NCBI RefSeq assembly: GCF_937873615.1
Contig: NZ_CALMYP010000065.1
Coordinates: forward strand, 33,542-97,541
From: an uncultured Paracoccus sp.
GTDB taxonomy: Bacteria; Pseudomonadota; Alphaproteobacteria; Rhodobacterales; Rhodobacteraceae
Direction: 5' to 3'
Length of the DNA stretch: 64,000 nucleotides
Numbering within the stretch: the stretch's first letter is position 1; every line of letters begins with the position of its first letter. The notes beneath the pieces are model-generated. The model had not been told where the DNA came from, did no database searches, and saw only the letters and a list, made by a program, of their open reading frames with translations. The translations under genes and the position numbers were made by a program. This document shows positions 32,944 to 57,676 of the stretch, piece after piece.

Positions 32944-33052
32944 TTTCGCCTTTCTGCCCGGTTGATCCCGGGTCCGGTTCGCCGCCCGGGTTGTCCCGGG
33001 TCATGCCTGTATCCGGCGATTCTAGCGAAGCATTGCGAATCAGGGAAGGGGC

Positions 33053-33925: not shown

Positions 33926-34755
33926 GCGGGCGCGGGCAGGCTGGCGATATCCAGCCTCGGCCCCTGCCCCGCGAACCCGCGCCAGATGTCGATCAGCGGG
34001 CGCAGACGCCCGGCCTTCTCATGGTCCTGCCAGGGCTTTTCGTATTGGTAATGCAGGATGTGGATCTCCTCCCACGACCACAGGTCGGGCATATTGAACC
34101 AGACATATTGCAGCATGTTGTAGAAGACCGGCAGCCCGTGCCAGTCGGGGAAGAAGCTTTCCAGGAAGGTCTGATCGGTGCGCCGCCAGAACATGCCGGG
34201 CCGGTCCAGCCGGTCCAGCATGAGTTGAAACGTCTCCGCCGAGGGCTGCGCCGTGAACACGCCAGAGTTCAGGCGGTGAAAATCCGTGAGGCTTTCATAG
34301 ACATTCGGCGCGGCGCAGAATTCGGGATAGGCGAACAGCTTGTCGCAATTCCTCAGCATCACCGCATCGGCGTCGATGAAGACCACGGCCTCGTATTCGA
34401 CCAACTGCCACAGCCGCAGCTTGGCGAAATTGTCCAGGGGCGTATGGAAAGGCGGCTTCACGCCCTTGGTAAATGCCGCGCGGGCGTGAAGCGCCTCGCG
34501 GGCATGGGTGGCGTTGAATTCGGTCGAGGTGTCCAGCAGATCCACCCCGATCAGCCGCGCCCCAACCTGTCGCAGCGGTTCCAGCCCGGCCTCGGGCACG
34601 GCGGTATGCAGCACCACGCAATCGGCCCCGGTTCCGGTGGCCTTGATCGAGTTCACCAATGCCAGCGCCCCAAGCGCGTAATCGGCATTGGTAGCCAGCG
34701 TGACATAGGCGAAACGGCTGGCGGGCGGGCCTTCCGGCATCAGACCGACGGACAT
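33922..34755 (-). CDS. GT8-like glycosyltransferase (glycogenin-type)
   Basis: A 277-residue GT-A fold protein. FAYVTLATNADYALGALALVNSI at residues 14-36 is the nucleotide-sugar-binding start, and EAVVFIDADAVMLRNCDKLF near residue 125 carries the metal-binding DxD motif (FIDADAV). YESLTDFHRLNSGVF and HILHYQ follow, as in glycogenin-like enzymes. The start is ATG 34755 with the reading frame open far upstream. It heads a two-gene unit with the epimerase, placed between ddl and murB. Substrate unknown. Confidence 0.85.
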   Translation of the reverse strand: MSVGLMPEGPPASRFAYVTLATNADYALGALALVNSIKATGTGADCVVLHTAVPEAGLEPLRQVGARLIGVDLLDTSTEFNATHAREALHARAAFTKGVKPPFHTPLDNFAKLRLWQLVEYEAVVFIDADAVMLRNCDKLFAYPEFCAAPNVYESLTDFHRLNSGVFTAQPSAETFQLMLDRLDRPGMFWRRTDQTFLESFFPDWHGLPVFYNMLQYVWFNMPDLWSWEEIHILHYQYEKPWQDHEKAGRLRPLIDIWRGFAGQGPRLDIASLPAPA

Positions 34756-34875
34756 GTGACCTCCTGCATGCTGGCGGCCCTTGCTATGGGCCGCGCGCGA
34801 TTGATACTGCAAGCGACCGCCCGCCCGCAAACCCTTCCCGGCAGCAGCCCCGCCCGCCACGATGACAGGACCCGC

Positions 34876-35532
34876 ATGGATCTGAACACCATCTTCCGCG
34901 AATTCATCACGCTTTTCGTGGTCATCGACCCGATCGGCTCGATCCCGGTCTTCCTGTTCGCGACGAAATACGTGCCGCGCGCCCTGCATCGCCGCTTTGC
35001 CATCCGCGCGGTGGCCGTGGCGACGGCGGTGCTGCTCGGGTTCCTGTTCTTCGGCCAGCTGGTGCTGGAGGCGATGGGGCTGCGCCTCGGTTCCTTCCAG
35101 ATCGCCGGGGGAATCGTGCTCTTCATCTTCGCGATGACGATGATCTTCGGCGATAGCAAACCCCAGCGTGAGATCGAGGAAGCCGAACGCGACCACCTGG
35201 AAGGCGCGGTCTTTCCGCTGGCGATCCCTTCCATCGCCTCGCCCGGAGCCATGCTGGGCGTCGTCGTTCTGACCGACAACCATCAGAATTCGTTCGGAGA
35301 TCAGCTAATTACAGCCGGCGCCCTGCTGGTCGTGCTGGCGATCACCCTGGCGCTGCTTCTGGCGGCGACCCGGGTCTATAAATATATAGGCAATACCGGA
35401 GCGAACATCATCAGCCGGGTGATGGGCATGCTGCTGGCCGCTGTCGCGGTCGATGCCATCCTGGGCGGCATGGATGTCATGGGGCTGGCCAATGTGGTCG
35501 GTGGCGCAGGCGAGATGCTGGCACCGAATTAG
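34876..35532 (+). CDS. MarC family integral membrane protein
   Basis: A 218-residue membrane protein with about six hydrophobic segments (residues 8-25, 45-65, 75-90, 118-138, 145-165, 185-205). Signature pieces are FITLFVVIDPIGSIPVF at the N-terminus and FPLAIPSIASPGAMLGVVVL near residue 115. MarC proteins were named for the multiple-antibiotic-resistance locus, but no transport role has been established for the family. The ATG at 34876 starts right at the conserved region. It runs against both flanking genes, so it is transcribed alone. Confidence 0.9.
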   Translation: MDLNTIFREFITLFVVIDPIGSIPVFLFATKYVPRALHRRFAIRAVAVATAVLLGFLFFGQLVLEAMGLRLGSFQIAGGIVLFIFAMTMIFGDSKPQREIEEAERDHLEGAVFPLAIPSIASPGAMLGVVVLTDNHQNSFGDQLITAGALLVVLAITLALLLAATRVYKYIGNTGANIISRVMGMLLAAVAVDAILGGMDVMGLANVVGGAGEMLAPN

Positions 35533-35538
35533 CCGGTC

Positions 35539-36462
35539 TCAGGCGGGATCGCCGATGCGGATCACTTCCCATTGCAACTCGTGGCCCGAGCTTTCGCGGA
35601 CGCGGGTGCGGACCAACTCGCCCAATTCCTCCAGTTCCGCCGCCGTAGCGCCGCCGGCGTTCAGCAGGAAATTCGGATGTTTTTCAGACATTTGCGCCCC
35701 GCCGAGGCGATAGCCGCGCAGGCCCGCTTCCTCGATCAGTTTCCAGGCCTTCAATTCGTGCGTGTCGTCCTCGCGCCCGGTGGAGCTATAGCCGGCGGGG
35801 TTGCGGAAGGTCGAGCCGGCGGTGCGGTCCTTCGTCGGCTGGGTGGCGTCGCGCCTGGCCAGTTGATCTTCCATTTTCGCGTGCAATTGCTGGGGATCGC
35901 CGCGTTCCGCGCGGAAGCGGGCCTGGGTCAGAACCCAGCCCTCGGGCAAGTCGCTGTGGCGATAGGCGAAGCCCAGATCCCGGGGCGAGAGCGTCACCAT
36001 GCGACCGTCGCGGGTCACCGCCTGGGCGTCGATCAGGTGGTCGGCGACATAGCTGCCATAGCAGCCGGCATTCATGCGCAGCGCGCCGCCGATGCTGCCG
36101 GGAATGGTGCGCAGGAAGGTCAGATCGAAGCCCGCATCGGCCGCCTTCCGCGCCACATGCGCATCCAGCGCCGCCGCCCCGACGATCACGGTTTCATCAG
36201 CGAAATCAATGCCATTAAAGCCGCGCCCCAGCCGCACCACGACCCCGCGAATGCCGCCGTCGCGCACGATGAGGTTCGAGCCGACACCGATTGGAAAGAC
36301 CGGCATGGCGGGGTCGAGATCCTTGAGGAAGGCGGCCAGATCCTGCGCATCTGCGGGCTGGAACAGCCAGTCGGCGGGGCCGCCGACGCGCAGCCAGGTC
36401 AGCCCGTCCAGCGGGCGGTCAGGGGTCAGGGCGCCGCGCGGCGTGGGAAGGTCGATGCTCAT
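35539..36462 (-). CDS. murB: UDP-N-acetylenolpyruvoylglucosamine reductase
   Basis: FAD enzyme that reduces UDP-GlcNAc-enolpyruvate in peptidoglycan synthesis. The 307-residue protein has the FAD-binding block [21 protein letters not shown] near residue 58, [17 protein letters not shown] near residue 124 and AGSTFRNP near residue 216, plus the C-terminal [10 protein letters not shown]. Neighbours to the left belong to the division cluster. In many relatives murC/murG continue upstream; here the accessory cluster begins instead. Confidence 0.96.
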
Positions 36463-36854: not shown

Positions 36855-38036
36855 ATGGCCAGTGAGGACAAGACAGGCGGCAAGGAGGAGGCGCGCGGCG
36901 CCAGACAGGCATCCGAGCCGGTCTTGCAGGTCGAACGGCGCGACTTCATCGAACTGGTTCCCGACGGCCGCAAGCGGGTTCAACCGATGCAGGGTTTCGA
37001 CGACATCTATACCGATATCGTCGATTACATCATCCGCTGCACCCACAAGATCTGGGACGAGCGCGATATCGGGCTGATCTATACCCATTACACGCATAAC
37101 TGCGTGCTCTATGGCACCATGGGCACGATCTATGACCGCGAGGATGTGGTGCGCGACACCATCCAGCGCCTGGTCAGCCTGCCCGAGAGGCGCGGCATGG
37201 CCACCCATGTCATCTGGGGCGGCAACGATCAGGACGGGTTCTATACCTCGCATCTGGTCACCGGCTCGGGCCGGCATACGCAGCATGGTCATTACGGCCC
37301 GCCCACGGGTCGCAATTTCGTCTCGCGGACCATCGCCGATTGCATGGTCCATGCCAACAAGATCTATCGCGAATGGGTGGTCTCGGACCAGATGGCGATC
37401 ATCCAGCAGCTCGGGCTGGACCCCCATGCCTTCGCCGAGAAGGTTGCGAAACGGCTGTTCGACAAGGGGCTGGTCAATATCGATATCGGCGAGAACCGGC
37501 GCATGCTGGGGCAATATCCGCCCGATGCGGATGCCGATCTGAGCATTGCCAACACGGATCTGGAGCGCGAGACGCTGCAATGGCTGCACGCGGTCTGGAA
37601 CCAGCGGATGCTGGGCCGGATCAAGGATGTCTATGCCGAGACCTGCCAGTATCACGGCCCGCTGATGGTCGAACTTTACGGGATCGCGGCGGTCACCCAT
37701 CAGACGCTGGGGCTCATAGGTTCCCTGCCCGATGCGCGCTTCCGACCGCAGCATATCTGCTCGACCCCCTGCGAGGAGGGCGGCACCAAGGTCGCGGTGC
37801 GCTGGATCCTTGAGGGGCATCACCTCGGTTACGGGCTGCTGCACGAGTTGGGAGAGCCGACCGGCAAGCATGTGCAGATCATGGGGATCAGCCATTTCCA
37901 CTACAAGAACGGCAAAATCGTCGACGAATGGCGCGTCTATGACGAGTTGTCGATCCTGATGCAGGTGAAGCTGGCGCAGATGGCCGACACGCCGGCGGCG
38001 CAGCCCGCGCCGCAAGCGGAAGCACAGGAAGACTGA
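36855..38036 (+). CDS. Double NTF2/SnoaL-fold protein (ester cyclase-like), cluster A
   Basis: A 393-residue soluble protein with two NTF2-like domains. The first covers roughly residues 45-190 and contains DYIIRCTHKIWDERDIGLIYTHY, then a conserved ADC and YREWVVSDQ. The second covers about 225-370, with HAVWNQRMLGRIKDVYAETC and KHVQIMGISHFHYKNGKIVDEW. The fold often binds small hydrophobic molecules or catalyses cyclisation and dehydration; no catalytic residue is certain here. It closely resembles the two genes at 46865 and 47833. The tail (residues 375-393) is Ala/Pro/Gln-rich. An operator-like site precedes it. Start ATG 36855. Confidence 0.8.
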   Translation: MASEDKTGGKEEARGARQASEPVLQVERRDFIELVPDGRKRVQPMQGFDDIYTDIVDYIIRCTHKIWDERDIGLIYTHYTHNCVLYGTMGTIYDREDVVRDTIQRLVSLPERRGMATHVIWGGNDQDGFYTSHLVTGSGRHTQHGHYGPPTGRNFVSRTIADCMVHANKIYREWVVSDQMAIIQQLGLDPHAFAEKVAKRLFDKGLVNIDIGENRRMLGQYPPDADADLSIANTDLERETLQWLHAVWNQRMLGRIKDVYAETCQYHGPLMVELYGIAAVTHQTLGLIGSLPDARFRPQHICSTPCEEGGTKVAVRWILEGHHLGYGLLHELGEPTGKHVQIMGISHFHYKNGKIVDEWRVYDELSILMQVKLAQMADTPAAQPAPQAEAQED

Positions 38037-38054
38037 ACCCCGGACTCCCCGACT

Positions 38055-38090
38055 GCCCGGCGCGCATATGAATGCCGCCGGGCTTTTTTT
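38055..38090 (+). terminator. Rho-independent terminator after the 36855 gene
   Basis: Stem GCCCGGCG/CGCCGGGC with a 13-base loop, then seven T's (38084-38090), 19 bp past the stop codon. Confidence 0.88.
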
Positions 38091-38097
38091 GTTCGGA

Positions 38098-39147
38098 TCA
38101 GGGCCTGAGGCCCAGTTGTTCCTGCAGGCGCCCGAGCACGTCGACGCCCATCTGCAACAGCAGGTCGAGGATATCGAGCGGCACCCAGTTCTCTCGGATC
38201 AGGCCTTCGTCATGGAGGTAGAAATCCATCACCCGCATGGTCACGGCGCGCCCGGTCGGCGGCAGGCCCATGAAGCCGCCGCCGGCATGTCTGGCAAAGA
38301 CGCTCGGCCAGCCGCCGGTGACGGAATAGGGGCCGTCGCCGATGCGGATGTAATGGCCGCCGCCATGTTCGGCCTTCAGGGAAGCGATCTCGTCCCATTG
38401 GCCGCCGCCCTTGCGATTCGGGAAAGCGGTGCGGAAGGGCAGTTGATGGCAATCGACAAAGCCCGCCAGCCCGCGCGCGGTGCCGATGCCGCTGGGGCCA
38501 TACCACATCATCTTCGGGTGCCAATGCTGCTTTTGCGGCATGTTCAGAAGCCCGTCGCGACCCTCTTTCGCCTCATCGTCATAGGCCCCCAGCGTTGCGT
38601 GCATGGCCAGCGTCTGCGCGATGCTGGCCGCGCCCTGCGCGGGGTCCTGCGGGGCAAGCACGATGCCGTCGCAGGTGATCGGGCCGGGCCACATCCCCTC
38701 GACCCCGAGGCTGGGGGCGACCGGCCAGAAGCCCGCCTGCCGGATCAGGTCGAGCACGTCCCATAGGCAATTGGACTGCACGATCTGGCCCCCGCGCAGC
38801 TCGTGCACCTCGCCATAGCGCAGGAAGATGGCACCGCCGGTGGCGGGGATGCCCAGCCAGTCCCTTTCGAAGGTGCCGCAATAATGACCGAGTGCTGCGA
38901 TATAGTCCCGGCCCTGATAGCTGCCGCCAACGAAGATCGTGTCGCGCCGTTCCAGATCCGGGAAGGCCTGCAGAAGCGGCGCCCAGACGCGTTCCGCAAT
39001 CGCCGCGGTCCCGCGCATCTCGTTCAGCGGATGCGCGCCGCGCCATTCGGCATCGCTTGCGTAAAGATCTGCCAGCGCCTCGCCCGGACCCGCAGGCCCC
39101 GCCCCGGCCAGCCGTTTCAACCCTTCCAGAATTCGTTTTCGTTCCAT
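38098..39147 (-). CDS. Double NTF2/SnoaL-fold protein, divergent from the transporter
   Basis: A 349-residue protein with two SnoaL-like halves. One is at about residues 20-150 (ADLYASDAEWRGAHPLNEM, YCGTFERDWLGIPATGG, FLRYGEVHELRGGQIV). The other is at about 205-330 (WHPKMMWYGPSGIGTARGL, then GFMGLPPTGRAVTMRVMDFYL). G-IPATG and GLPPTGR are the typical SnoaL substrate-loop positions. It is a more distant relative of the other three NTF2 proteins of this cluster. It is transcribed away from the ABC transporter operon; a near-palindromic operator lies between their starts. Confidence 0.78.
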   Translation of the reverse strand: MERKRILEGLKRLAGAGPAGPGEALADLYASDAEWRGAHPLNEMRGTAAIAERVWAPLLQAFPDLERRDTIFVGGSYQGRDYIAALGHYCGTFERDWLGIPATGGAIFLRYGEVHELRGGQIVQSNCLWDVLDLIRQAGFWPVAPSLGVEGMWPGPITCDGIVLAPQDPAQGAASIAQTLAMHATLGAYDDEAKEGRDGLLNMPQKQHWHPKMMWYGPSGIGTARGLAGFVDCHQLPFRTAFPNRKGGGQWDEIASLKAEHGGGHYIRIGDGPYSVTGGWPSVFARHAGGGFMGLPPTGRAVTMRVMDFYLHDEGLIRENWVPLDILDLLLQMGVDVLGRLQEQLGLRP

Positions 39148-39218
39148 GCATCACCCATCTGCCTGACGATCATGTCTCTGACGATCCGAAATCCGGATCT
39201 TCGCCATCTAAATTTTTA

Positions 39219-39234
39219 TTGCATTCGTATGCAA
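39219..39234. promoter_or_regulatory. Candidate LacI operator, copy 2
   Basis: TTGCATTCGTATGCAA, arms TTGCAT/ATGCAA around TCGT. It lies between the divergent 38098 (-) and 39370 (+) genes and shares 15 identical bases with the 36787 site. Confidence 0.78.
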
Positions 39235-39369
39235 GTCTTGTTAGCGTCAATCTGCGACGGGTTATTTCCGCCCGGTTCGCCAACAAGAAACATTATTCCG
39301 ACCGGCCCCATAGTCATGGTGCCGACCTGCCGCCCCGGGGCGGAAGCTGTTCTCAACAGGAGACGAAGA

Positions 39370-40605
39370 ATGAACGGATTTCTGAAGGCCTCTGTCGCGA
39401 TTGCCGCCCTTGTCGGCGGTGCCGGTATGGCGATGGCCGATTGCGGGATCGAAAAGGGATCGGTGCGCATCCTGTCGAACGATTTCGCGGCACTGCATGT
39501 CGTCGCAAGCGCGGCCGAGACCTGCGCCAGCGGCACCGTCACGGTGACCAAGAACCAGACGACCGAGCACAAGGACATTCAGGTGCCGGCGCTGACCACC
39601 AATCCGGCCAATTACACCGTCGCCATGATCGCGACCAACTCGGTCACGCCGCTTCTGACCAACGATCTGGTGCGCCCGCTGGATGAATATGTCGAGAAAT
39701 GGGGGCAGGATCTTCAGGAAAGCCAGTTGATCCGCGTCGACGGCAAGATCATGGCCATCGCCTATATGGTCAATGCCGAACACCTGTTCTACCGCGAGGA
39801 TATCCTGGCCGAGAACGGCATCGAGGTGCCGACATCCTTCGACGAGATGCTGGCCGCCGGCCAGAAGCTGCGCGATGCCGGGATCGCAAACCCGCTCGCT
39901 GTCGCTTATCAGTCGGGCTGGTATCTGGGCGCGGCCTTCGTGAACACCTATCTCGGCACCGGGGGCGAGTTCTTCAAGGACGGCACCGCCGAGGTCGATA
40001 TCAACAACGAAAACGGCATCAGGACGCTGGAAACCCTGAAGGCGATGAGCGGCTACATGTCGCCCGATTTCATCACCTACAGCACCAATTCGCTGCGCCC
40101 GATGTGGGAAGCGGGCGATACCGCGATCCAGATCAGCTGGGGCTCGACCACCGGCCAGTATATCGCCGATGACAGCGCCGTGCCGGAAGTGGCCAAGGCG
40201 ACGAAATTCGCCGCAGCCCCCACGATCAATGGCGGCAGCATCCCTTCGGCTGCGCTGTGGTGGGACGGGTTCGTGATCGCGAAGAACGTCTCGGACGAGG
40301 ATGCCGAGGCCTCGTTCCGGGCGATGATGGTCGGGATCTCGCCCGACACCGCCGCGGCCAACCCGGAAGTCGCCGTCTGGCTGGTGAAGGGCTATGAGCC
40401 GACACCGGCAGCCGTCGGCGTCGTGGCCGACCTTGAAGGCGGCGCCCGGCCCTATCCGATGCTGCCCTATATGGGGCTTCTGCACACCGCGCTTGGCGAC
40501 AACCTGGCCGAGTTCATGCAGGGCAAGGAAAGCGCCGAGCAGGCACTGGCCGATGTGACCGCCGCCTATACCACCGCCGCCAAGGAAGCCGGCTTCATCG
40601 AATAA
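39370..40605 (+). CDS. ABC transporter extracellular solute-binding protein (CUT1 type)
   Basis: A 411-residue secreted binding protein. The signal peptide MNGFLKASVAIAALVGGAGMAMA is cut before DCGIEKG. Family features include the type-1 domain with TTNPANYTVAMIATNS, the YMVNAEHLFYREDILAENGIE segment near residue 135 and RPMWEAGDTAIQISWGS near residue 245. It binds an unknown ligand in the periplasm and delivers it to the two permeases downstream. RBS AGGAGA lies 7 bp before the ATG. A 7-bp intergenic stem-loop follows, as is common after binding-protein genes. Confidence 0.93.
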   Translation: MNGFLKASVAIAALVGGAGMAMADCGIEKGSVRILSNDFAALHVVASAAETCASGTVTVTKNQTTEHKDIQVPALTTNPANYTVAMIATNSVTPLLTNDLVRPLDEYVEKWGQDLQESQLIRVDGKIMAIAYMVNAEHLFYREDILAENGIEVPTSFDEMLAAGQKLRDAGIANPLAVAYQSGWYLGAAFVNTYLGTGGEFFKDGTAEVDINNENGIRTLETLKAMSGYMSPDFITYSTNSLRPMWEAGDTAIQISWGSTTGQYIADDSAVPEVAKATKFAAAPTINGGSIPSAALWWDGFVIAKNVSDEDAEASFRAMMVGISPDTAAANPEVAVWLVKGYEPTPAAVGVVADLEGGARPYPMLPYMGLLHTALGDNLAEFMQGKESAEQALADVTAAYTTAAKEAGFIE

Positions 40606-40616
40606 GCAGCTTTGAC

Positions 40617-40642
40617 GGGGGCGCCCTTGACGGGTCGCCCCC
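40617..40642 (+). terminator. Intercistronic hairpin after the binding-protein gene
   Basis: Stem GGGGGCG/CGCCCCC, with an inner CCC/GGG pairing possible. No T-run follows; it probably limits read-through or protects the binding-protein mRNA so that the protein exceeds the permeases. Confidence 0.6.
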
Positions 40643-40759
40643 TTCTGTCCGCCGCAACCGGCCTGCGGGTTGAACCCCCCGCGCGCCTTGCATCCGCCCC
40701 TGCCCGAATGCGCAGGTGCGGGCGCAGGACCAGGGCCGCCACATCCGACGGAGTAACCA

Positions 40760-41788
40760 ATGCCCCACAGGACGTTCATGGCCTTCATCTGGCCCTCGCT
40801 TCTGGCGATGATCCTGTTCATCGCGGTGCCGATCGTTTCGGTCGCCTATCAATCGCTGTTCGTCGAACATCAGCAGATCATGACCCAGGTCGAAAGCTGC
40901 GGCCCCTTCGGCTGCAAATCGGAAGCCCGCGTCGATGCCGCCGCCATGGCCGAACTGCGCACCGAAGAGCCGATGGGCCGCTATAACGGCCTTGGCACCT
41001 ATACCAATGCCAGCCACCTGGCCTTCGGGGAACTCCGCGCCGCATGGGCGGCCAGCGAGGGCTTCGGCGATTTCTTCGACAAGGTGATGAACCTGCCCTT
41101 CTACAAGGCGCTGATCTTCACGCTGTGCTATACGTTCATCGTCACGCCGCTGGTGATCGTGCTGGGCTTCTGCATCGCTGTTGCGGTCAATGCGGTCTCG
41201 GCGCGGCTGAAGGGGCCGGTGATCTTCTTCTCATTGCTGCCGATGATCGTGACGCCGCTGATCGGGGCGCTGGTGCTGTTCTGGATGATCGATTCGCGCG
41301 GGATCATCGGGGCCACGCTGCAGGTGCTGTTCAACGATCCGCAACTGTCGCTGAAAGCCTCGCCCACGCTGACCTGGGTCACGCTGTTCGTGTACGGCGT
41401 CTGGCACAGCGCGCCCTTTGCCTTCGTGGTCTTCTATGCCGGTCTGCAGACCGTGCCGCAGGACACACTGGAAAGCGCCATGGTCGATGGCGCGAGCCGC
41501 TGGGAGCGGATCAAATATGTGACCATTCCCTATCTGATGCCGCTGGCGACCTTCATCGCGCTGATGCAGCTCATGGACAATTTCCGCGTCTTCGAGCCGG
41601 TCATCGGTTTCTCGGCCGAGGCAAGCGCCTCCTCGCTGAGCACGCTGATCTATTCCGATCTGCGATCCGGGGATTTCCCGCTGTTCGGATCGGCTGCGGC
41701 TACATCGCTGCTGACCATCTTCGGCGTGGTGATCCTTCTGTCTCCGGTGCTGATCCGCACCTGGCGCGAATTCAAGCACAAGGGCTGA
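40760..41788 (+). CDS. ABC transporter permease 1 (CUT1/MalF type)
   Basis: A 342-residue membrane protein with six hydrophobic segments. A periplasmic stretch of about 80 residues (residues 35-115, including VESCGPFGCKSEARVDAAAM) precedes the transport core. The EAA loop is visible as ESAMVDGASRWERIKYVTIPYLMPL near residue 235 (EAA-x3-G-type DGAS-W). It pairs with the second permease, 4 bp downstream. The substrate is not evident. Confidence 0.92.
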   Translation: MPHRTFMAFIWPSLLAMILFIAVPIVSVAYQSLFVEHQQIMTQVESCGPFGCKSEARVDAAAMAELRTEEPMGRYNGLGTYTNASHLAFGELRAAWAASEGFGDFFDKVMNLPFYKALIFTLCYTFIVTPLVIVLGFCIAVAVNAVSARLKGPVIFFSLLPMIVTPLIGALVLFWMIDSRGIIGATLQVLFNDPQLSLKASPTLTWVTLFVYGVWHSAPFAFVVFYAGLQTVPQDTLESAMVDGASRWERIKYVTIPYLMPLATFIALMQLMDNFRVFEPVIGFSAEASASSLSTLIYSDLRSGDFPLFGSAAATSLLTIFGVVILLSPVLIRTWREFKHKG

Positions 41789-41792
41789 TCCA

Positions 41793-42674
41793 ATGTCCCA
41801 GAGCATAAACCGGAAACCCATGCCCCTCGTCGCACTGTCCACGGGATTCGTGCTGCTATGGCTGTTCCTTGCCGCCTTCCCCTTCATCTGGACGGCCTGG
41901 GGATCGTTCAAGGTCGAGGCCGACTTCTTCTCTCGGACCGACTGGATGAACGCCTTCACCGGCCCGGCAACCGAGGCCCAGACCGGCAGTTCCTTCACCG
42001 GCAGCGGCTATCATGGCGCCTGGATCGAGCAGGAGTTCTGGCGCGCGGTGCTGAACACCTCGATCGTGGTCTTCTGCGTCGTCACCATTTCGCTGACCTT
42101 CGGCACGCTTGGCGGCTATGCGCTGGCACGGTCGGGGTTCAAATATACCTTCTGGATCCTGATCGCGGCGCTGATCTTCCGGGCCATGCCGCATGTGACG
42201 CTGGTGTCGGGCTATCTGCTGCCCTTCTTCGAGATGAATATCTGGGGCTACCTGCCGACCACGATCATCGTGCTGGTGGCGATCAACCAGCCCTTCACGC
42301 TGTGGATGCTGCACAGCTTCTTCATGACCATTCCCAAGGATCTGGACGAAAGCGCCATGGTCGATGGCTGCACCCGCTTCCAGGCCTTCCGGCTGGCGGT
42401 GATCCCGGTCATGTGGCCGGGCGTCGTGACCACGGGCCTGTTCAGCTTCCTGCTGGCCTATAACGATTTCACCGTCACCTCGATGCTGCTGAGCCAGGAA
42501 AACCAGACCATGATCCCCAAGATCAACAGCTTCCTCGGTTCCACCCAGCAGGAGGGCAAGGTCATGTATGCCGTCGCCGCCGCGGTTTCCGCGATGGCAC
42601 CCCTGTTCGTGCTGGTGATGGTGTTCCAGCGTCAGATTGTCAGCGGCCTGACCGCCGGCGCAGTGAAAGGATAA
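41793..42674 (+). CDS. ABC transporter permease 2 (CUT1/MalG type)
   Basis: A 293-residue membrane protein with six predicted helices and the EAA loop DESAMVDGCTRFQAFRLAVIP near residue 187. The long segment after the first helix (residues 35-85) may line the entry site. It is the MalG-like partner of the upstream permease, with the ATPase starting 4 bp after it. Confidence 0.93.
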   Translation: MSQSINRKPMPLVALSTGFVLLWLFLAAFPFIWTAWGSFKVEADFFSRTDWMNAFTGPATEAQTGSSFTGSGYHGAWIEQEFWRAVLNTSIVVFCVVTISLTFGTLGGYALARSGFKYTFWILIAALIFRAMPHVTLVSGYLLPFFEMNIWGYLPTTIIVLVAINQPFTLWMLHSFFMTIPKDLDESAMVDGCTRFQAFRLAVIPVMWPGVVTTGLFSFLLAYNDFTVTSMLLSQENQTMIPKINSFLGSTQQEGKVMYAVAAAVSAMAPLFVLVMVFQRQIVSGLTAGAVKG

Positions 42675-42678
42675 CCCA

Positions 42679-43731
<1,053 letters not shown>

Positions 43732-43749
43732 CCCCTGAAGGAACCCGAT

Positions 43750-45078
43750 ATGGCCATTGAACATCTGAAATCCGGCAAACCCGCCGAGGCGCGGGCCGAG
43801 GACGACGCCAAGGTCCGGGCCACGGTCGAGGCCACCCTGAAGGATATCGAGACGCGCGGCGATGCGGCCGTGCGCGAGCTTTCGGCAAAATTCGACGGCT
43901 ATGCGCCGCAGAGCTTCCGCCTGTCGCCCTCGGAAATCGAGGCCGCGATGGCTCAGGTCAGCACGCGCGATATGGAGGACATCCGTTTCGCGCAGACCCA
44001 GATCCGCCGCTTCGCCGAGGCGCAGCGGGCCTCGATGACCGATATCGAGGTGGAAACGATGCCGGGCGTGATCCTCGGCCATCGCAATATCCCGGTGCAA
44101 TCGGTCGGCTGCTATGTGCCCGGCGGCAAGTTTCCGATGGTGGCCTCGGCCCATATGTCGGTGCTGACCGCCTCGGTCGCGGGGGTGCCGCGCATCATCG
44201 CCTCGGCGCCGCCGGTCAAGGGCGCGCCGCATCCGGCCATCGTCGCCGCCATGCATCTGGGCGGCGCGCATGAGATCTATGTCATGGGCGGCATTCAGGC
44301 GGTGGGTGCGATGGCGCTCGGGACCGAAAGCATCGAGCCGGTGCATATGCTGGTCGGCCCCGGCAATGCCTTCGTGGCCGAGGCGAAGCGCCAGCTTTAC
44401 GGCCGCGTCGGTATCGACCTGTTCGCCGGCCCGACCGAGACGATGGTCATCGCCGATGACACGGTCGATGCCGAACTGGTCGCGACCGACCTGCTGGGAC
44501 AGGCCGAACACGGCTATAACTCTCCCGCCTGCCTGATCACCACTTCCCGCAAGCTGGCGGACGGCACCCAGGCCGAGATCGACCGGCTGCTGGACCTGCT
44601 GCCGACGCGCGAAACCGCCGAGACCTCGTGGCGGGATTACGGCGATATCTACCTCTGCGACACGCATGAGGAGATGCTGGAGCTGGCCAATGAGCTTGCC
44701 TATGAGCATGTCCAGATCATGACCGACCGCGACGACTGGTATCTGGAGAACATGCATTCCTATGGCGCGCTGTTCCTTGGCCCGCGCACCAATGTCGCCA
44801 ATGGCGACAAGGTGATCGGCACCAACCACACCCTGCCGACGAAAAAGGCCGGGCGCTATACCGGCGGGCTCTGGGTCGGGAAGTTCCTGAAAACCCACAG
44901 CTATCAGAAGGTCACCACGGATGAGGCGGCGACCCTGATCGGCGAATACGGATCGCGCCTGTGCCTGCTGGAAGGCTTTGTCGGTCATGCCGAACAATGC
45001 AATATCCGGGTGCGACGCTATGGCGGGATCAACGTCCCTTACGGCGAACCGGCACCCTATCACGAAGCGGCGGAGTAG
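43750..45078 (+). CDS. Histidinol dehydrogenase-like enzyme, HpsN (sulfopropanediol dehydrogenase) type
   Basis: A 442-residue NAD- and zinc-dependent polyol/sulfo-polyol dehydrogenase of the HisD superfamily. HisD motifs are intact: [17 protein letters not shown] (Gln and His zinc ligands), YEHVQIM (catalytic Glu-His), [13 protein letters not shown] (Asp ligand) and VGHAEQ (His ligand). The segments [15 protein letters not shown] and [19 protein letters not shown] resemble HpsN of marine Rhodobacteraceae more than true HisD. It may oxidise a primary alcohol twice to a carboxylate. Whether the substrate is sulfonated is not shown; no sulfonate lyase gene is visible nearby. The SDR follows after 3 bp. 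Confidence 0.85.
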
Positions 45079-45081
45079 CCC

Positions 45082-45846
45082 ATGAGCCTGCCAAAGACCC
45101 CGTCCTTCCGGCTGGAGGAGCGCCGCGCGCTTGTCACCGGCGCGTCCTCGGGCATCGGCGCCGCCTGCGCCTCGGCCCTGGCGGAAATGGGCGCGCATGT
45201 GGTCTGCGCGGCGCGCGGGGCCGACCGGCTGCAGGCCGTGGTCGATGAGATCAACGCCCGTGGCGACAGCGCCGAGGCGCTGCCGCTCGACATGGCCGAT
45301 CTCGATGCGCTTGGTGCCGCACTTGAGGCACAGCCGGCCTTTGACGTGGTGGTCAACTCTGCCGGGCTGGCGCGACACTCGGCGGCGCTTGAGACGCTGC
45401 CGCAGGATTTCGACGCAGTCATGGCGCTGAACCTGCGCGCGGCCTATTTCCTGTCCACCGGTGCGGCGCGCAAGATGATCGCGGCGGGCAAGGGCGGCTC
45501 GATCATCCATGTCTCCAGCCAGATGGGCCATGTCGGCGGCATCGACCGGGCGGTCTATTGCGCCTCGAAACACGCGCTTGAAGGCATGGTGAAATCCATG
45601 GCCATCGAATGGGGCCGCGACCGGGTGCGGATCAATACCGTCTGCCCGACCTTCATCCGCACGCCGCTGACCGCATCGACCTTCGACAACCCCGAGCGGG
45701 TGGCCTGGATCGAGGAGAAGATCAAGCTCGGCCGCGTCGGCGAGGTCGAGGATATCATGGGCGCGGTCGCCTATCTGGCGTCCGATGCCTCGTCGCTGGT
45801 GACGGGGACGGCGCTGATGGTCGATGGCGGATGGACGGCGGACTGA
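45082..45846 (+). CDS. Short-chain dehydrogenase/reductase
   Basis: A 254-residue classical SDR. The cofactor motif TGASSGIGAACASAL is at residues 19-33, NSAG near residue 90, and YCASKHALEGM with the catalytic Tyr-Lys is intact near residue 155; HVSSQMGH supplies the Ser. The C-terminal GTALMVDGGWTAD is typical. It probably oxidises the substrate's secondary alcohol or reduces a keto intermediate of the LacI-controlled pathway. The last base of its stop codon is the first base of the lacI start. Confidence 0.94.
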   Translation: MSLPKTPSFRLEERRALVTGASSGIGAACASALAEMGAHVVCAARGADRLQAVVDEINARGDSAEALPLDMADLDALGAALEAQPAFDVVVNSAGLARHSAALETLPQDFDAVMALNLRAAYFLSTGAARKMIAAGKGGSIIHVSSQMGHVGGIDRAVYCASKHALEGMVKSMAIEWGRDRVRINTVCPTFIRTPLTASTFDNPERVAWIEEKIKLGRVGEVEDIMGAVAYLASDASSLVTGTALMVDGGWTAD

Positions 45847-46868
45847 TGGCAAACGAGAAGGTGACATCGCAGGACGTGGCGAAGCTGGCAGGTGTCAGCC
45901 AATCGGCGGTCAGCCGGGTATTCACGCCCGGTGCCTCGGTCTCGCAGGCGATGGCCAAGAAGGTGCGCGCGGCGGCGGCAGAGCTGGGATACCGGCCCAA
46001 TGTGCTGGCGCGCTCGCTGATCACGGGTCGGTCGCGGATCATCGGGCTGGTGGTCGCCTATCTGGAAAACCAGTTCTATCCCATCGCCATCGAGAACCTG
46101 TCCCGCGCCCTGCAGGCCGAAGGCTATCACATCCTGATCTTCATGGCCGAGAACTCTGAAAGCCAGGTTGCCGAGGTCATTCAGGAGCTGATGGATTATC
46201 AGGTCGACGGGATCATCGCGGCCTCGGTGGCGATGACGCATGACCTGTCGGAACGCTGTGCGGCGGCGGGCATTCCGGTGGTGCTGTTCAACCGCGATCA
46301 GGACGGGCAGTCCCATTCCGCCGTGACCTCGGCCAATGTGCTTGGCGGGGCCAAGGTGGCGGAATTCCTGATCGCCGGCGGGCATGAGCGCATCGCCCAT
46401 ATCGCCGGCTGGCAGGGGGCTTCGACCGGGCGCGACCGGCAGAGGGGTTTCCTCGACGCGCTTGCCGCTGCCGGACGCGAACCGGTGGCGGTGATCGACG
46501 GCATGTATGCGCGCGACGGCGCGGCTGAAGCCGCACGGCAGATGATGGCCATGGCCGCGCCGCCGGACGCGATCTTCGTCGGCAATGACCATATGGCCTT
46601 CGCGGTGATGGATGTGCTGCGCAGCGAATTGGGGCTGTCGGTTCCGGGCGATGTGTCCATCGTCGGCTATGACGATGTGCCGCTGTCGGCATGGCCGGCC
46701 TTCGATCTGACCACGATCCGCCAGCCGGTGAACCGCATGGTCACGGCGACCGTGGAAACCATCCTCGCCAAGATCGAGGACCCCGCGCAAAAGCCCCGCC
46801 GCATCGAAATCGACGGCCCGCTGATCCTGCGCGGATCGGCCCGCATACCCGAAGGATGGCCCGCATGA
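45846..46868 (+). CDS. LacI-family transcriptional regulator
   Basis: A 340-residue LacI/PurR-type repressor. The HTH VTSQDVAKLAGVSQSAVSRVF is at residues 6-26 and the hinge helix with NVLARSL near residue 55. The periplasmic-binding-like effector domain spans residues 65-335 (GIIAASVAMTHDLSERC, IAHIAGWQGASTGRDRQRGF, IFVGNDHMAFAVMDVL). It is inside the operon, translationally linked to both neighbours. The most likely operators are the two near-palindromes at 36787 and 39219 (inference). Confidence 0.93.
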   Translation: MANEKVTSQDVAKLAGVSQSAVSRVFTPGASVSQAMAKKVRAAAAELGYRPNVLARSLITGRSRIIGLVVAYLENQFYPIAIENLSRALQAEGYHILIFMAENSESQVAEVIQELMDYQVDGIIAASVAMTHDLSERCAAAGIPVVLFNRDQDGQSHSAVTSANVLGGAKVAEFLIAGGHERIAHIAGWQGASTGRDRQRGFLDALAAAGREPVAVIDGMYARDGAAEAARQMMAMAAPPDAIFVGNDHMAFAVMDVLRSELGLSVPGDVSIVGYDDVPLSAWPAFDLTTIRQPVNRMVTATVETILAKIEDPAQKPRRIEIDGPLILRGSARIPEGWPA

Positions 46869-47836
46869 GCGCCTATGAACGCTGGCAGGATTTCCCCGAT
46901 TACATCATCGGCATCACCCGGGAGATCTGGGAAGATCGCGGCGTCGAGACGCTGAACCGCTATTACGCGCCCGATATTCCCGTGCGCTCTCCCATGGGCG
47001 TATCGCGCGGGAACCAGGCGGTGATCGCCGCGACGATGGGCACGATCCATGAGTTCCCCGACCGCAGCCTGCTGGCCGAGGATGTGATCTGGTCCAACGA
47101 TCCGCAGGCGGGGCATCTGTCCTCGCACCGGCTGATCAGCATGGGCACGCATCTGCGCGATGGCCAGTTCGGCCCGGCCACCGGGCGCAAATGGACGGTG
47201 CGCGTCATCGCCGATTGCGCGGCGAAGGGCGAGGCGATCTATGACGAATGGCTGGTGCGCGATTATGGCGGTATCGTCCGCCAGCTCGGGCTCGACCCGC
47301 TGCAATTCACCCGCGACCTGATCGCGGCAGAAGGCGGGCCGGACGGCGCGACCCACCCTTTCCGGCCCGAAGACGATGTCGATGGCGGCTATCATGGGCG
47401 CGGCAATGCGAATGAATGGGGTCAGCGCTATGCCGATGACCTGCGTCGGGTGATGGACACGGATTTCAACCATATCCTGACCAGCTATGACCGCGCCGCC
47501 ATGGGCCATTATCCCGGCGCCCGGACGGTGATCGGACGTGACGGTATCGCCGATTTCTGGTTGGGCCTGCGCTCCTCCTTCCCCTCGGCCCGGTTCGAGA
47601 TCCACCACCAGATCGGCATGGATGCCGATATGCTGTCGCCCCGTGCCGCGATCCGGTGGAGCCTTGACGGCACCCATGACGGCTGGGGCGCCTTTGGCCG
47701 GCCCACCGGGGCGCGGGTGCATGTAATGGGCATCTCTCATGCCGAATACGGGCCATGGGGGCTGCGCCGCGAGACCGCGCTTTACGACGAGATCGCCATC
47801 TGGAAGCAGATATTGCTGCAAGCGGGGACCGCATGA
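46865..47836 (+). CDS. Double NTF2/SnoaL-fold protein, tandem copy 1
   Basis: A 323-residue protein with two NTF2-like halves. One is at residues 1-150 (DYIIGITREIWEDRGVETLNRYY, VRVIADC, YDEWLVRDYG); the other is at 180-323 (WGQRYADDLRRVMDTDF, then ARVHVMGISHAEYGPWG, DEIAIWKQ). The first half is clearly related to the N-terminal half of the 36855 product. Likely binds or transforms a small pathway metabolite; no catalytic site can be read with confidence. ATGA overlap with lacI and with the next gene. Confidence 0.8.
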   Translation: MSAYERWQDFPDYIIGITREIWEDRGVETLNRYYAPDIPVRSPMGVSRGNQAVIAATMGTIHEFPDRSLLAEDVIWSNDPQAGHLSSHRLISMGTHLRDGQFGPATGRKWTVRVIADCAAKGEAIYDEWLVRDYGGIVRQLGLDPLQFTRDLIAAEGGPDGATHPFRPEDDVDGGYHGRGNANEWGQRYADDLRRVMDTDFNHILTSYDRAAMGHYPGARTVIGRDGIADFWLGLRSSFPSARFEIHHQIGMDADMLSPRAAIRWSLDGTHDGWGAFGRPTGARVHVMGISHAEYGPWGLRRETALYDEIAIWKQILLQAGTA

Positions 47837-48801
47837 GCACGCCGCGCTATCCCGATCCGACCAGCTATATCCTCGGCATCACCCGTGACATCTGGGAGGA
47901 TCGCGGCATCTCGCTGCTGGAGACCGCCTATGCGCCCGAGATGATCATGCGCAATGCCGGCGGCATGAAGATCGGCAATGGCGCGGTCATCAACGACACG
48001 CTGGCCAAGATGGCCGCTTTCCCTGACCTTGAGATATTGGGCGAAGATGTGATCTGGGCCGGCGATCCGGGTGGCCGTTACCTGTCCTCGCATCGCAGCG
48101 TCATCACCGGCACCCATAGCGGGCATGGCGTCTGGGGGCCGCCCACAGGCCGGCGTTTCACCGTGCGCTGCATCGCCGATTGCTCGGTCCTGGATGAGGT
48201 CATCGACGACGAATGGCTGGCCTATGATACCGGCGATCAGGCCCGGCAACTGGGTCATGACCCGTCGGATTACGCCCGCGCCCGGATCCTGGCCGAGGGC
48301 GGGCCGGATGCTGCGGCCCGTCCTTTCACCCCCGATCAGGACCGGCCCGGCCCATATCTTGCGCGCGGCAATGACAGCGAATGGGGGCAGCGGCTGGCCG
48401 ACATCCTGACCCGGATCATGTCCAAGAATATCAGCGCGATCCGCGCCGAATACGACCGCGCCATCCGCATCGAACATGCCGGCGGCATCGGCGGCTGGGG
48501 CTGGCAGAATGCCGAGGCGATCTGGATGCGCCTGCGCTCGGCCTTCCCGTCGGCCGAGTTCCGCATCCACCATGTCATCGGCCGCTCGGACCCCGCGCAG
48601 CCCCACCGCGCCGCGATCCGCTGGAGCCTCGACGGCCGGCATGACGGCTTCGGCCGCTTCGGCGACCCGAGCGGCGCGCCGGTTCACGTCATGGGCTTCA
48701 CCCATGCCGAGTTCGGCCCCTGGGGCCTGCGCCGCGAGTTCACGCTGTTCGACGAGGTCGCGATCTGGAAGCAGATCCACCTGCATACGGGGGGATTCTG
48801 A
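47833..48801 (+). CDS. Double NTF2/SnoaL-fold protein, tandem copy 2
   Basis: A 322-residue paralogue of the preceding gene: SYILGITRDIWEDRGISLLETAYAP, VRCIADC and DEVAIWKQIHLH occur in the same order and spacing. The C-terminal half again has APVHVMGFTHAEFGPWGLRREF. The two genes overlap by 4 bp (ATGA). Their similarity and adjacency suggest a tandem duplication, perhaps forming a hetero-oligomer. The 138 bp to the bicupin holds no convincing gene. Confidence 0.8.
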   Translation: MSTPRYPDPTSYILGITRDIWEDRGISLLETAYAPEMIMRNAGGMKIGNGAVINDTLAKMAAFPDLEILGEDVIWAGDPGGRYLSSHRSVITGTHSGHGVWGPPTGRRFTVRCIADCSVLDEVIDDEWLAYDTGDQARQLGHDPSDYARARILAEGGPDAAARPFTPDQDRPGPYLARGNDSEWGQRLADILTRIMSKNISAIRAEYDRAIRIEHAGGIGGWGWQNAEAIWMRLRSAFPSAEFRIHHVIGRSDPAQPHRAAIRWSLDGRHDGFGRFGDPSGAPVHVMGFTHAEFGPWGLRREFTLFDEVAIWKQIHLHTGGF

Positions 48802-48939: not shown

Positions 48940-49905
48940 ATGACACCTCAGGAAATGGAAAACCGCATCGTCCGCTATGGCGACCTGCAACCCTGCAAGA
49001 CCGCCTTCATCGACGCCCATACGCCGGGATCGGACCAGAAGGAAAACTTCACCATCATCGGCGGCGGGGTCAGCGAAAGCCCGGATCAGCACGTCCATAT
49101 CTCGATCCCGCACGGGTTCAATATCGGCGCCGCCGGCCAGCCGCCGAAATGCCGCAACAGCCTGCATTCGCACCGCACCGCCGAGGTCTTCTTCGTCCTC
49201 AAGGGCCGGTGGCGCTTCTTCTGGGGTCGCTGGGGCAATGCCGGCGAAGTCGTGCTGGAGGAAGGCGACATCTTCAACATCCCGACCGGCATCTTCCGCG
49301 GGTTCGAGAATATCGGCACCGATTACGGCATGATCATGGCGATCCTCGGCGGCGACGATGCCGGCGGCGGCGTGATCTGGGCGCCGCAGGTGATCGAGGA
49401 TGCCAAGGATCACGGGCTGATCCTGTCCGAGCAGGGCAAGCTCTATGACAGCAAGAAGGGCCAGTCCCTGCCCAAAGGCGTGGCACCGATGCCGCTGCTG
49501 ACGGATGCGCAGTTGAAAGCCTTCCCCGAACCCACGACCGCCGATGTCGTGCCGCATTACATCGCCCGCTATTGGGATCTGGTGGCGCTTGCCGACAGGC
49601 AACCGGCCAGGGTCATCGGCGAGAATGCGAAACTGCGCGACAAGCCGGGATTCGAGGTCGATTTCCTGACCGAGAAAACCCCCAGCGACGCAAAACAGCG
49701 CCACGATGTTCCCGCCGTGCTGATGCCGGTGCGCGGGCATTGGAAAGTGACCTGGGCCGATGGCAGCGCCACGCTCGCCCCCGGCGACACGATGAGCGTG
49801 CCGGAGGGGCTGGAATATGCCCTCGCCCCCTCAATGACCGGCGAATCCGCGCTTTATCGCACGGTCGGCACCGCCGATCCGGCCGGCCTGACCTGGAAAC
49901 CCTGA
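48940..49905 (+). CDS. Two-domain cupin protein
   Basis: A 321-residue bicupin. The first cupin (residues 60-150) has HSHRTAEVFFVLKGRW with candidate metal-binding His and Glu, then LEEGDIFNIPTGIFRGFEN. The second (residues 235-310) has VPAVLMPVRGHWKVTWADG and LAPGDTMSVPEGLEYA but lacks an obvious His pair, so it is probably the non-catalytic half. Bicupins of this type are often dioxygenases or isomerases for organic acids; no substrate can be read. It begins 138 bp after the NTF2 genes. Confidence 0.85.
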   Translation: MTPQEMENRIVRYGDLQPCKTAFIDAHTPGSDQKENFTIIGGGVSESPDQHVHISIPHGFNIGAAGQPPKCRNSLHSHRTAEVFFVLKGRWRFFWGRWGNAGEVVLEEGDIFNIPTGIFRGFENIGTDYGMIMAILGGDDAGGGVIWAPQVIEDAKDHGLILSEQGKLYDSKKGQSLPKGVAPMPLLTDAQLKAFPEPTTADVVPHYIARYWDLVALADRQPARVIGENAKLRDKPGFEVDFLTEKTPSDAKQRHDVPAVLMPVRGHWKVTWADGSATLAPGDTMSVPEGLEYALAPSMTGESALYRTVGTADPAGLTWKP

Positions 49906-49950
49906 TCCTGTCCGGGGCGCCCTTTGGCGCCCCGCTCCTCGGAGGACACC

Positions 49951-51072
49951 ATGACCATCCTGACCACCCATGTCGGCAGCCTTCCCCGCAATCAGGAGGT
50001 CGTCGATTTCATCTTCGCCCGCGAGCATGGCACGCCCTATGACGCACCCGCCTTCGATGCCGCGATGACCCGCGCCGTGTCCGAGACCGTGCGCAAGCAG
50101 GTCGAGGCCGGGGTCGATATCGTCTCGGACGGCGAGACATCGAAGATCAGCTATGCGACCTATGTGAAGGATCGCTATACAGGCTTCGACGGCGACAGCC
50201 CGAGGAACGCCCCCGCCGATCTGAAACTGTTCCCCAGCTTCCTGAAGCGCATCGCCGAATCCGGCGGCACCCCGCAATATGCCCGCCCGATGTGCGTGGG
50301 CGAGGTGAAGTCGAAGGGTCAGGGAGAACTGGACAAGGACATCGCCAATCTGAAGGCCGCGATGGCCGAACATGGGGCCGAACGCGGCTTCATGAACGCA
50401 GCCTCGCCGGGGGTGATCTCTCTGTTCCTGCAGAACGATTTTTATCCGACACGAGACGCCTATCTGGCCGCGCTCGCCGATGCGATGAAGGCGGAGTACG
50501 AGACCATCGTCGCCTCGGGTCTGGACCTGCAACTGGACTGCCCCGATCTGGCGCTGTCGCGGCATATGCTGTTCACCGACCTCAGCGACGCCGAATTCGT
50601 GAAGGTCGCGGCGAGCCATGTCGAGGCGCTGAACCATGCCCTGTCCGATATTCCGCCCGAAAAGGTGCGCATCCATATCTGCTGGGGCAATTACGAGGGC
50701 CCGCATGTCTGCGACATTCCCATGGCGCAGATGTTCGACACGCTGATGTCGGCGCGGGCGCGCTATGTGCTGTTCGAAACCTCGAACCCGCGCCACGGCC
50801 ATGAATGGGCAACCTTCCGCGACCGCCGCGCCGACATTCCCGACGACAAGGTGCTGGTACCGGGCGTGGTCGACACCACGACGAATTTCGTCGAGCACCC
50901 GGAACTGGTCGCGCAACGCCTGACCCGCTTCACCGAGATCGTCGGCCAGGACCGCGTCATTGCCGGTTCGGATTGCGGCTTCGGCACCTTCGCGGGCTTC
51001 GGCGCAGTCGATCCCGACATCGCCTATGCCAAGCTGAAGGCGATGGCCGAAGGGGCGGCGCTGGCATCGTGA
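49951..51072 (+). CDS. Cobalamin-independent methionine synthase-like protein (MetE C-domain/EaCoMT type)
   Basis: A 373-residue TIM-barrel zinc enzyme of the MetE C-terminal family. THVGSLPRNQEVVDFI is at the N-terminus, and the zinc ligands are visible as IHICWGNYEGPH (His-x-Cys) near residue 240 and GSDCGFGTFAGFG (Cys) near residue 340. Too short for full MetE (about 750 residues). Known relatives include epoxyalkane:coenzyme M transferase and small demethylating enzymes. The role here could be transfer of a thiol or methyl group. RBS GGAGGACA lies 4 bp before the ATG. Overlaps the hydrolase by 4 bp. Confidence 0.85.
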   Translation: MTILTTHVGSLPRNQEVVDFIFAREHGTPYDAPAFDAAMTRAVSETVRKQVEAGVDIVSDGETSKISYATYVKDRYTGFDGDSPRNAPADLKLFPSFLKRIAESGGTPQYARPMCVGEVKSKGQGELDKDIANLKAAMAEHGAERGFMNAASPGVISLFLQNDFYPTRDAYLAALADAMKAEYETIVASGLDLQLDCPDLALSRHMLFTDLSDAEFVKVAASHVEALNHALSDIPPEKVRIHICWGNYEGPHVCDIPMAQMFDTLMSARARYVLFETSNPRHGHEWATFRDRRADIPDDKVLVPGVVDTTTNFVEHPELVAQRLTRFTEIVGQDRVIAGSDCGFGTFAGFGAVDPDIAYAKLKAMAEGAALAS

Positions 51073-57657: not shown

Positions 57658-57676
57658 CGCTGCCGTCCTGTTCCGT

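Follow-up and report, generated by a model that had tools for sequence, protein, structure and literature searches.

A widespread gene set for the probable uptake and breakdown of one compound

The 64,000-nucleotide stretch analysed here (the window), from a contig of an uncultured Paracoccus sp., carries a widespread and seemingly undescribed gene set that appears to serve the import and breakdown of one compound, with the help of two-domain NTF2 enzymes. Four double-NTF2/SnoaL proteins (A–D) are encoded around a CUT1-type ATP-binding cassette (ABC) transporter, an HpsN-like dehydrogenase of the HisD family, a short-chain dehydrogenase/reductase (SDR) and a LacI-family regulator (Table 1), an arrangement that a sequence-only reading of this DNA had already described correctly. 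That reading had also taken the genes as one unit, and the shared operator and conserved neighbourhood reported below bear this out. Its limits of 36855–48801 proved too short: genes for a bicupin, a MetE-like protein, an alpha/beta hydrolase and an RraA-type protein continue the unit at 48940–52456, and here it probably extends to 55220, taking in an amidase gene and, convergent with it, the gene for a second HisD-family dehydrogenase (HisD2).

A LacI-type operator (TGCATTCGTATGCA) lies upstream of the protein A gene, and a second one separates gene B from the transporter genes. When up to two mismatches were allowed, TTGCATTCGTATGCAR occurred at only two places in the whole genome, both in this cluster and neither beside the HisD2 gene. 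With 11 or 12 matches required over its 12 positions, the consensus TGCATnCGnATGCA gave 154 sites in 89 of 141 loci, some of which are repeats, as against one site for the reversed consensus. In the 60 of these 89 loci for which positions were obtained, most sites directly precede transporter, NTF2 or cupin genes. The exact form was detected at 14 sites in 30 other genomes (control, one site): ten in the cluster, one before a remote transporter and NTF2 set, and three elsewhere, of which one has a LacI-family gene (33% identity) alongside. Genome G324 holds a remote transporter with two NTF2 genes and the same operator (L236, 8826–13700), ~0.3 Mb from its main cluster. Because the operator is shared, the flanking NTF2 genes most likely belong to the unit. 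On balance, we favour a single regulon under LacI control, in which the regulator is predicted to bind this operator, together with a catabolic logic that would take a hydroxymethyl-bearing, probably ring-shaped compound to aldol cleavage with release of pyruvate.

Relatives of protein C (E 1e-20 or better) are encoded in 185 of 390 genomes of the order, covering 69 of 139 genera. A relative's protein matched 27 of the 385 genomes in a sample of the class, 22 of them outside the family of the window's genome, and some of these carriers are small (1.4–2.0 Mb at 92–99% completeness); the family profile matched 23 of 398 genomes in a sample of the phylum, 7 of them again outside that family. Within the genus of the window's genome the set is patchy, with matches in four genomes (this one included) and none in at least 20. 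Named carriers include Paracoccus isoporae DSM 22220 (locus L059) and Yoonia litorea DSM 29433 (L075). A search for the same neighbourhood elsewhere, as proposed by the sequence-only reading, showed that 19 of 20 relatives' loci fetched at 20 kb combine NTF2, HpsN-like, SDR, LacI and cupin genes; in the remaining one (L042), only SDR, LacI and NTF2 genes were seen. Versions of the set are also carried by Vibrio, Pantoea, Klebsiella, Deinococcus and Priestia records, and plasmid records with varied forms come from Ensifer, Deinococcus, Sinorhizobium, Priestia, Roseibium, Paracoccus and Pantoea. One Vibrio record holds the transporter and four NTF2 genes only. For the Phaeobacter inhibens plasmid pDOK1-1-2 (L054, 11608–14978), an incomplete gene table lists no more of the set than an annotated ABC ATPase and a single NTF2 gene near insertion sequences, perhaps a remnant.

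For counts of individual components, we kept 104 of 141 loci examined, setting aside 23 short loci, 8 that were not clusters and 6 duplicates. HpsN-like (98) and cupin (100) genes are nearly constant in them, counts that are inflated, like that of NTF2 genes, by selection of the loci for an NTF2 gene plus a cupin or HpsN-like gene. LacI (96), SDR (87), hydrolase (76), MetE-like (75), substrate-binding protein (74) and RraA (63) genes are common, and HpcH (15), HisD2 (11), amidase (9) and A-type NTF2 (9) genes are rarer. One NTF2 frame was counted in 11 loci, two in 50, three in 32, four in 10 and five in 1. Of the 11 loci with HisD2, 8 also have the amidase and 8 have an A-type NTF2 gene (Fisher 5.6e-9); neither here nor below do the P values for co-occurrence allow for common descent. 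A RidA-like gene, named by eye, was found in three loci and a C-N hydrolase gene in one.

No description of the gene set or its operator was found in open-licence PubMed Central (PMC) full text, and the claim that no described pathway has this set stands to that extent. The portions consulted of a Ruegeria pomeroyi transporter paper (PMC10130141), of PMC11131964, PMC4334477 and PMC4103551, and of the homarine literature revealed no link to it. The enzyme families are known; their combination and the operator seem undescribed.

Tandem NTF2 architecture of proteins A–D

The four double-NTF2 proteins claimed from the sequence are all present as open frames. Each exceeds the Pfam SnoaL gathering score as a whole (PF07366 E-values of 5.7e-26, 1e-18, 2e-19 and 2.5e-15 for A–D, respectively) and shows SnoaL in two stretches (4 of 4, at a lax single-stretch threshold of E 1). 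In three of the four, one half aligns with the other (pairwise E 1.5e-12 for A, 9e-6 for B and 2.6e-6 for D); for C the value is only 0.12. Sequence identity is 53% between C and D and ~30% between A and either of these, and B is distant from the other three, with local similarity only. Public records annotate these double-NTF2 proteins, which form a large family, mostly as "ester cyclase".

A structure model was obtained for protein C, the only one of the four to be modelled, from an alignment with 25 relatives (predicted local distance difference test score (pLDDT) 93.9, predicted template modelling score 0.91). It contains two consecutive helix-plus-sheet units of NTF2 type, as predicted by the sequence-only reading. 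The top Foldseek matches were the tandem SnoaL-type epoxide hydrolases Lsd19 and MonBI/MonBII, which likewise have two SnoaL/NTF2 domains per chain. Their alignment spans ~315 columns at a root mean square deviation of ~17 Å over the full length, so the domain arrangement of protein C is unlike theirs; it is also only 12–13% identical to them and stands in a different gene context. Single SnoaL proteins such as IdmH match one unit at 2.2–2.7 Å. By its model, protein C folds as a tandem NTF2 protein, with a putative cyclase, isomerase or hydrolase activity. Most of what is known of SnoaL-family and Lsd19-like folds comes from polyketide biosynthesis, and the genes might therefore be viewed as a biosynthetic cluster that makes a secondary metabolite by means of SnoaL-type cyclases. 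We consider this very improbable given the binding-protein-dependent importer, the LacI control and the pyruvate-type aldolases; moreover, no polyketide or peptide synthase was seen among the annotated genes around the clusters of the plasmid and Vibrio records in a search that was not systematic.

The HisD-family dehydrogenases look like subfamilies of their own

The HpsN-like dehydrogenase scores above the TIGR00069 cut-off, and its best PDB sequence matches are the 2,3-dihydroxypropanesulfonate (DHPS) dehydrogenases 8wwe (phmmer 380 bits) and 8v35. Its HisD-family membership and closest relatives are in keeping with the HpsN likeness that had been claimed for it; the DHPS signature is not, being replaced by GK[FY]P[MLI]. 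According to PMC11382572, HpsN is distinguished by GRY[AS]H, whose His126 binds the sulfonate, and HisD by GSAPL. At this position the protein of the window reads GKFPM. GK[FY]P[MLI][VL] was read in 109 of 110 HpsN-like cluster homologues (the remaining one unread, some loci repeated), which at the diagnostic motif sets them apart from both HpsN and HisD, members of the same family. The second copies (HisD2) show GR[YF]P[LI]L in 12 of 12. A HisD-type loop, given as GSAPL in PMC11382572 and reading GTASY in 4g07, is found in neither copy of the window.

These best PDB matches, together with the retained Asp352 and Lys353 of the GDK motif (phmmer alignment; 97% conserved in 84 sequences) and the TRAP transporter genes that a few loci share with known hps operons, could suggest a pathway for DHPS or a similar sulfonate around a true HpsN. 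However, GRY[AS]H with His126 was present in none of the 121 HisD-family cluster proteins read (one more unread, some loci duplicated). Because the dehydrogenase lacks this signature, a sulfonate substrate is unlikely, and we give the DHPS pathway, disfavoured on the motif, hardly any credence. Histidine biosynthesis is likewise disfavoured, since a HisD-family gene with a HisD-like loop stands elsewhere in the genome: of its three HisD-family members, two lie in the window and the third, on contig C66, has the loop GQASYPSSV, which resembles GTASYPSSV of the solved HisD 4g07 and is not GSAPL letter for letter. By their motifs, the HpsN-like and HisD2 proteins look like two subfamilies, marked out here and labelled histidinol dehydrogenase in public records, whose substrates would be neither DHPS nor histidinol. 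By analogy with the family, the HpsN-like enzyme is expected to oxidise a CH2OH group to COOH.

Bicupin, aldolases and MetE-like protein

His76, His78, Glu82 and Arg120 of the bicupin are invariant in all 37 aligned rows, which were hand-picked from 79 non-redundant ones. A model built from 34 rows (pLDDT 91.8) has quercetin 2,3-dioxygenase, itself a bicupin, as its best Foldseek match (template modelling score ~0.5), and oxalate decarboxylase and vicilins match as well. The HxH and Glu of cupin motif 1 are kept as in quercetin 2,3-dioxygenase, whereas the identity is only 11–14%, arginine takes the place of the fourth ligand and the second half, by eye, is without a metal motif.

The RraA-type protein (PF03737, 57.8 bits) belongs to the RraA-like family of the 4-carboxy-4-hydroxy-2-oxoadipate aldolases LigK/PcmE and shares their conserved Arg-Asp pair; the arginine is kept in 65 of 66 proteins and the pair appears in the 95% consensus of 56. 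It nevertheless falls far below the LigK/PcmE equivalog cut-off (TIGR02798, 26.9 against 304.5 bits). RraA and HpcH genes avoid each other, which suggests that either aldolase serves: both occur in 2 of the 104 loci, RraA only in 61, HpcH only in 13 and neither in 28 (Fisher 7.7e-5). With wider reference sets and 130 loci, the corresponding counts are 6, 63, 27 and 34 (Fisher 4.5e-6). The MetE-like protein possesses HxC, Glu and Cys motifs, which we take to be zinc ligands and which are all present in 82 of 94 such proteins; its best MetE equivalog score (88.5 bits) is below the cut-off of 406.

Sister clusters with tetronate enzymes

Searching with the Ensifer cupin revealed sister clusters, in which the cupin, an HpcH aldolase and the alpha/beta hydrolase are joined by OtnK, OtnC and often OtnI (7 of 11 Otn loci). 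Examples are L254 (Vibrio pelagius plasmid, 4147–12608), L255 (Thioclava plasmid, 5857–15360), L265, L266, L269 and L270, all with a TRAP or ABC transporter and all lacking NTF2 and HpsN-like matches in their stretch. Otn proteins from the Vibrio cluster score above the NCBIfam cut-offs. The sister clusters thus pair the enzymes of the OtnK/OtnC/OtnI tetronate pathway with the same cupin-aldolase-hydrolase trio; in contrast, the annotated stretch of the window has no Otn match and carries the HpsN-like and NTF2 genes instead. Across 130 cupin loci, kept from 160 after removal of 14 without cupin, 11 short ones and 5 duplicates, HpsN-like genes alone were found in 102, Otn genes alone in 10, both in 1 and neither in 17. 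In the single locus with both, the Otn genes sit with a second cupin and run in the opposite direction. This split is suggestive only.

Proposed pathway and candidate substrates

From gene content, the two predicted folds, motifs, conservation and operator sequence, we infer the reactions and their order as follows. The transporter would import a ring compound of about the size of a sugar, probably containing nitrogen, in which a hydroxymethyl group adjoins a carbon that carries a hydroxyl. The double-NTF2 enzymes would hydrolyse or isomerise it, and the accessory amidase and HisD2 may trim a side chain. The HpsN-like enzyme would then convert CH2OH to COOH in two NAD-dependent steps, the bicupin would open the ring, the alpha/beta hydrolase would hydrolyse an ester or lactone, and RraA (elsewhere HpcH) would release pyruvate and a C4 keto acid, predicted to be oxaloacetate-like after oxidation by the HpsN-like enzyme and an oxo-tetronate in the Otn version. 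Substrate identity would explain a common uptake and carbon route; nearly half of the order's sampled genomes encode a relative of protein C.

Ordinary degradation of a sugar, polyol or sugar acid, in line with the sequence-only reading, would give the NTF2 proteins the part of isomerases or epimerases and would do without oxygen-dependent ring cleavage. It would account for the CUT1 transporter with its sugar-type binding protein (weak PDB matches to trehalose/maltose-binding protein and SmoF), the LacI regulator, the SDR and HisD-family oxidoreductases and the Otn enzymes of tetronate metabolism in the sister clusters. It would leave superfluous the invariant putative metal site of a cupin with predicted dioxygenase-type fold, the two to five NTF2 frames of 93 of the 104 loci, and the amidase and HisD2 of some loci; to our knowledge, familiar sugar routes need no such cupin, multiple NTF2 proteins, amidase or second HisD-like enzyme. 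We hold this explanation to be unlikely, though worth keeping in view. A nitrogen-containing ring compound seems a likelier substrate than a simple polyol, because a bicupin of predicted quercetinase-like fold and an aldolase belong to the core and because some loci add the amidase, HisD2, RidA-like or C-N hydrolase genes. The accessory amidase and HisD2 would also suit another nitrogen-containing natural product with amide and hydroxymethyl groups (for example, a pantothenate-like compound or an amino-polyol) degraded by the same enzymes, as would the breadth of hosts from Rhodobacterales to Vibrio, Pantoea, Klebsiella, Deinococcus and Priestia. We know of no pantothenate route that needs a cupin, a pyruvate aldolase or NTF2 proteins, all of which would be superfluous there, and our doubts about this alternative are as strong as those about the sugar route.

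Among specific ring compounds, we tentatively propose mycosporines, namely the mycosporine-like amino acids of algae and cyanobacteria and the fungal mycosporines, as the possible substrates of the regulon, and gadusol as that of the sister Otn clusters. The core ring of mycosporines and gadusol is a 2-methoxy-1,3-diketone with a tertiary hydroxyl and a CH2OH group, gadusol having one hydroxyl more. It fits unusually well because it offers diketone cleavage, methyl-ester hydrolysis and retro-aldol reaction at the tertiary carbinol. NTF2 enzymes would hydrolyse off the amino acids, the HpsN-like enzyme would oxidise CH2OH to COOH, and the cupin would use O2 to split the diketone into an acid plus an alpha-keto methyl ester. 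Methanol would be freed by the hydrolase, or the MetE-like protein would take the methyl group off first, and the aldolase would yield pyruvate and oxaloacetate. The amidase and HisD2 might trim the glutaminol-type amino-alcohol side chains of fungal mycosporines. Gadusol fits unusually well because, with the same cupin-aldolase-hydrolase trio, the second product besides pyruvate would be exactly 3-oxo-tetronate, the OtnK substrate. If true, the proposal would supply genes for the recycling of natural sunscreens. A review (PMC3083659) credits Dunlap and Shick with the suggestion that Vibrio harveyi hydrolyses shinorine and porphyra-334, and no genes for this were found in open-licence PMC full text.

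Several observations weigh against the regulon, the general pathway or the mycosporine and gadusol scheme. At the sequence level, the cupin's PDB matches are no more than marginal, to 3-hydroxyanthranilate dioxygenase (best E 0.04); it has arginine where the fourth metal ligand usually is, and the bicupin fold is shared by oxalate decarboxylase and storage proteins. The best PDB relative of the RraA-type protein is uncharacterised, and the fetched stretch of 34 of the 130 cupin loci, some of them cut, shows no aldolase. Of the 30 other genomes, just 11 carry the exact operator, and three of its 14 sites stand at no cluster gene set. OtnI is more easily reconciled with a 2-oxo-tetronate product than with the 3-oxo one of the gadusol scheme. 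The HpsN-like/Otn split is partly built in, because the two groups were found with different probes and the rows are related by descent; 17 of the 130 loci have neither, and the 14 loci of the order found with the Ensifer cupin comprise 7 with Otn, 1 with HpsN-like and 6 with neither. Finally, a MetE-like homologue (E 1e-10) was absent from 9 of 13 genomes, which had been chosen mainly for a locus without it.

This absence weakens the MetE-like protein as an obligatory demethylase and hence raises the alternative of the hydrolase as esterase. The hydrolase is kept in 40 of 45 loci lacking MetE-like genes and in 59 of 85 with them (Fisher 0.017; neither in 5 of 130), a co-occurrence that hints weakly at this role. 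As possible replacement demethylases we considered seven neighbours of the Paracoccus alcaliphilus and Phaeobacter plasmid clusters; these genes are not common to the loci lacking MetE-like genes.

Gene layout and flanking genes

Table 1 Features of the gene set (positions in the window).
Feature	Start	End	Strand	Basis
LacI-type operator upstream of the protein A gene	36788	36801		Pattern search
Double NTF2/SnoaL protein A, 393 aa	36855	38036	+	Pfam SnoaL in two stretches
Double NTF2/SnoaL protein B, 349 aa	38098	39147	-	Pfam SnoaL in two stretches
Second LacI-type operator, between gene B and the transporter genes	39220	39233		Pattern search
CUT1-type substrate-binding protein	39370	40605	+	PF01547
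ABC permease	40760	41788	+	PF00528
ABC permease	41793	42674	+	PF00528
MalK/UgpC-type ABC ATPase	42679	43731	+	PF00005, OB_MalK
HisD-family dehydrogenase, HpsN-like, apparent own subfamily, motif GGKFPMV	43750	45078	+	Family search, motif
SDR oxidoreductase	45082	45846	+	Pfam search
LacI-family regulator	45846	46868	+	PF00356, PF13377
Double NTF2/SnoaL protein C, 323 aa	46865	47836	+	Pfam SnoaL in two stretches; structure model
Double NTF2/SnoaL protein D, 322 aa	47833	48801	+	Pfam SnoaL in two stretches
Bicupin, invariant H76, H78, E82, R120, predicted quercetinase-like fold	48940	49905	+	Pfam, alignment, model
MetE-like zinc methyltransferase-family protein	49954	51072	+	PF01717; zinc motifs
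Alpha/beta hydrolase	51069	51761	+	PF12697
RraA-type aldolase-family protein	51758	52456	+	PF03737
Amidase, accessory module	52600	53952	+	PF01425; co-occurrence
Second HisD-family dehydrogenase (HisD2), motif GGRYPLL, accessory module	53940	55220	-	PF00815

Start codons of two genes were picked by eye, an ATG for the MetE-like gene (Pfam search run from 49924) and a GTG for the alpha/beta hydrolase gene (Pfam search run from 51093). Outside the window, proteins named by eye in some loci include a peptidase M15-like one in 4 loci (among them L037, 7289–8020) and a GMC-type oxidoreductase in 11.

The frames next to the unit were likewise assigned by eye. On the left flank (32020–36462), Ddl-like (32020–32943) and MurB-like (35539–36462) frames lie on the minus strand, so the cluster abuts cell-wall genes. 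The right flank contains, on the minus strand, frames resembling an AMP-binding CoA ligase (56056–57723), a cyclase-family protein (57677–58450) and a zinc-ribbon acyl-CoA-associated protein (58466–59752) and, on the plus strand, one resembling indolepyruvate ferredoxin oxidoreductase (61676–63823). Together, the frames at 56056–63823 are perhaps another catabolic set.

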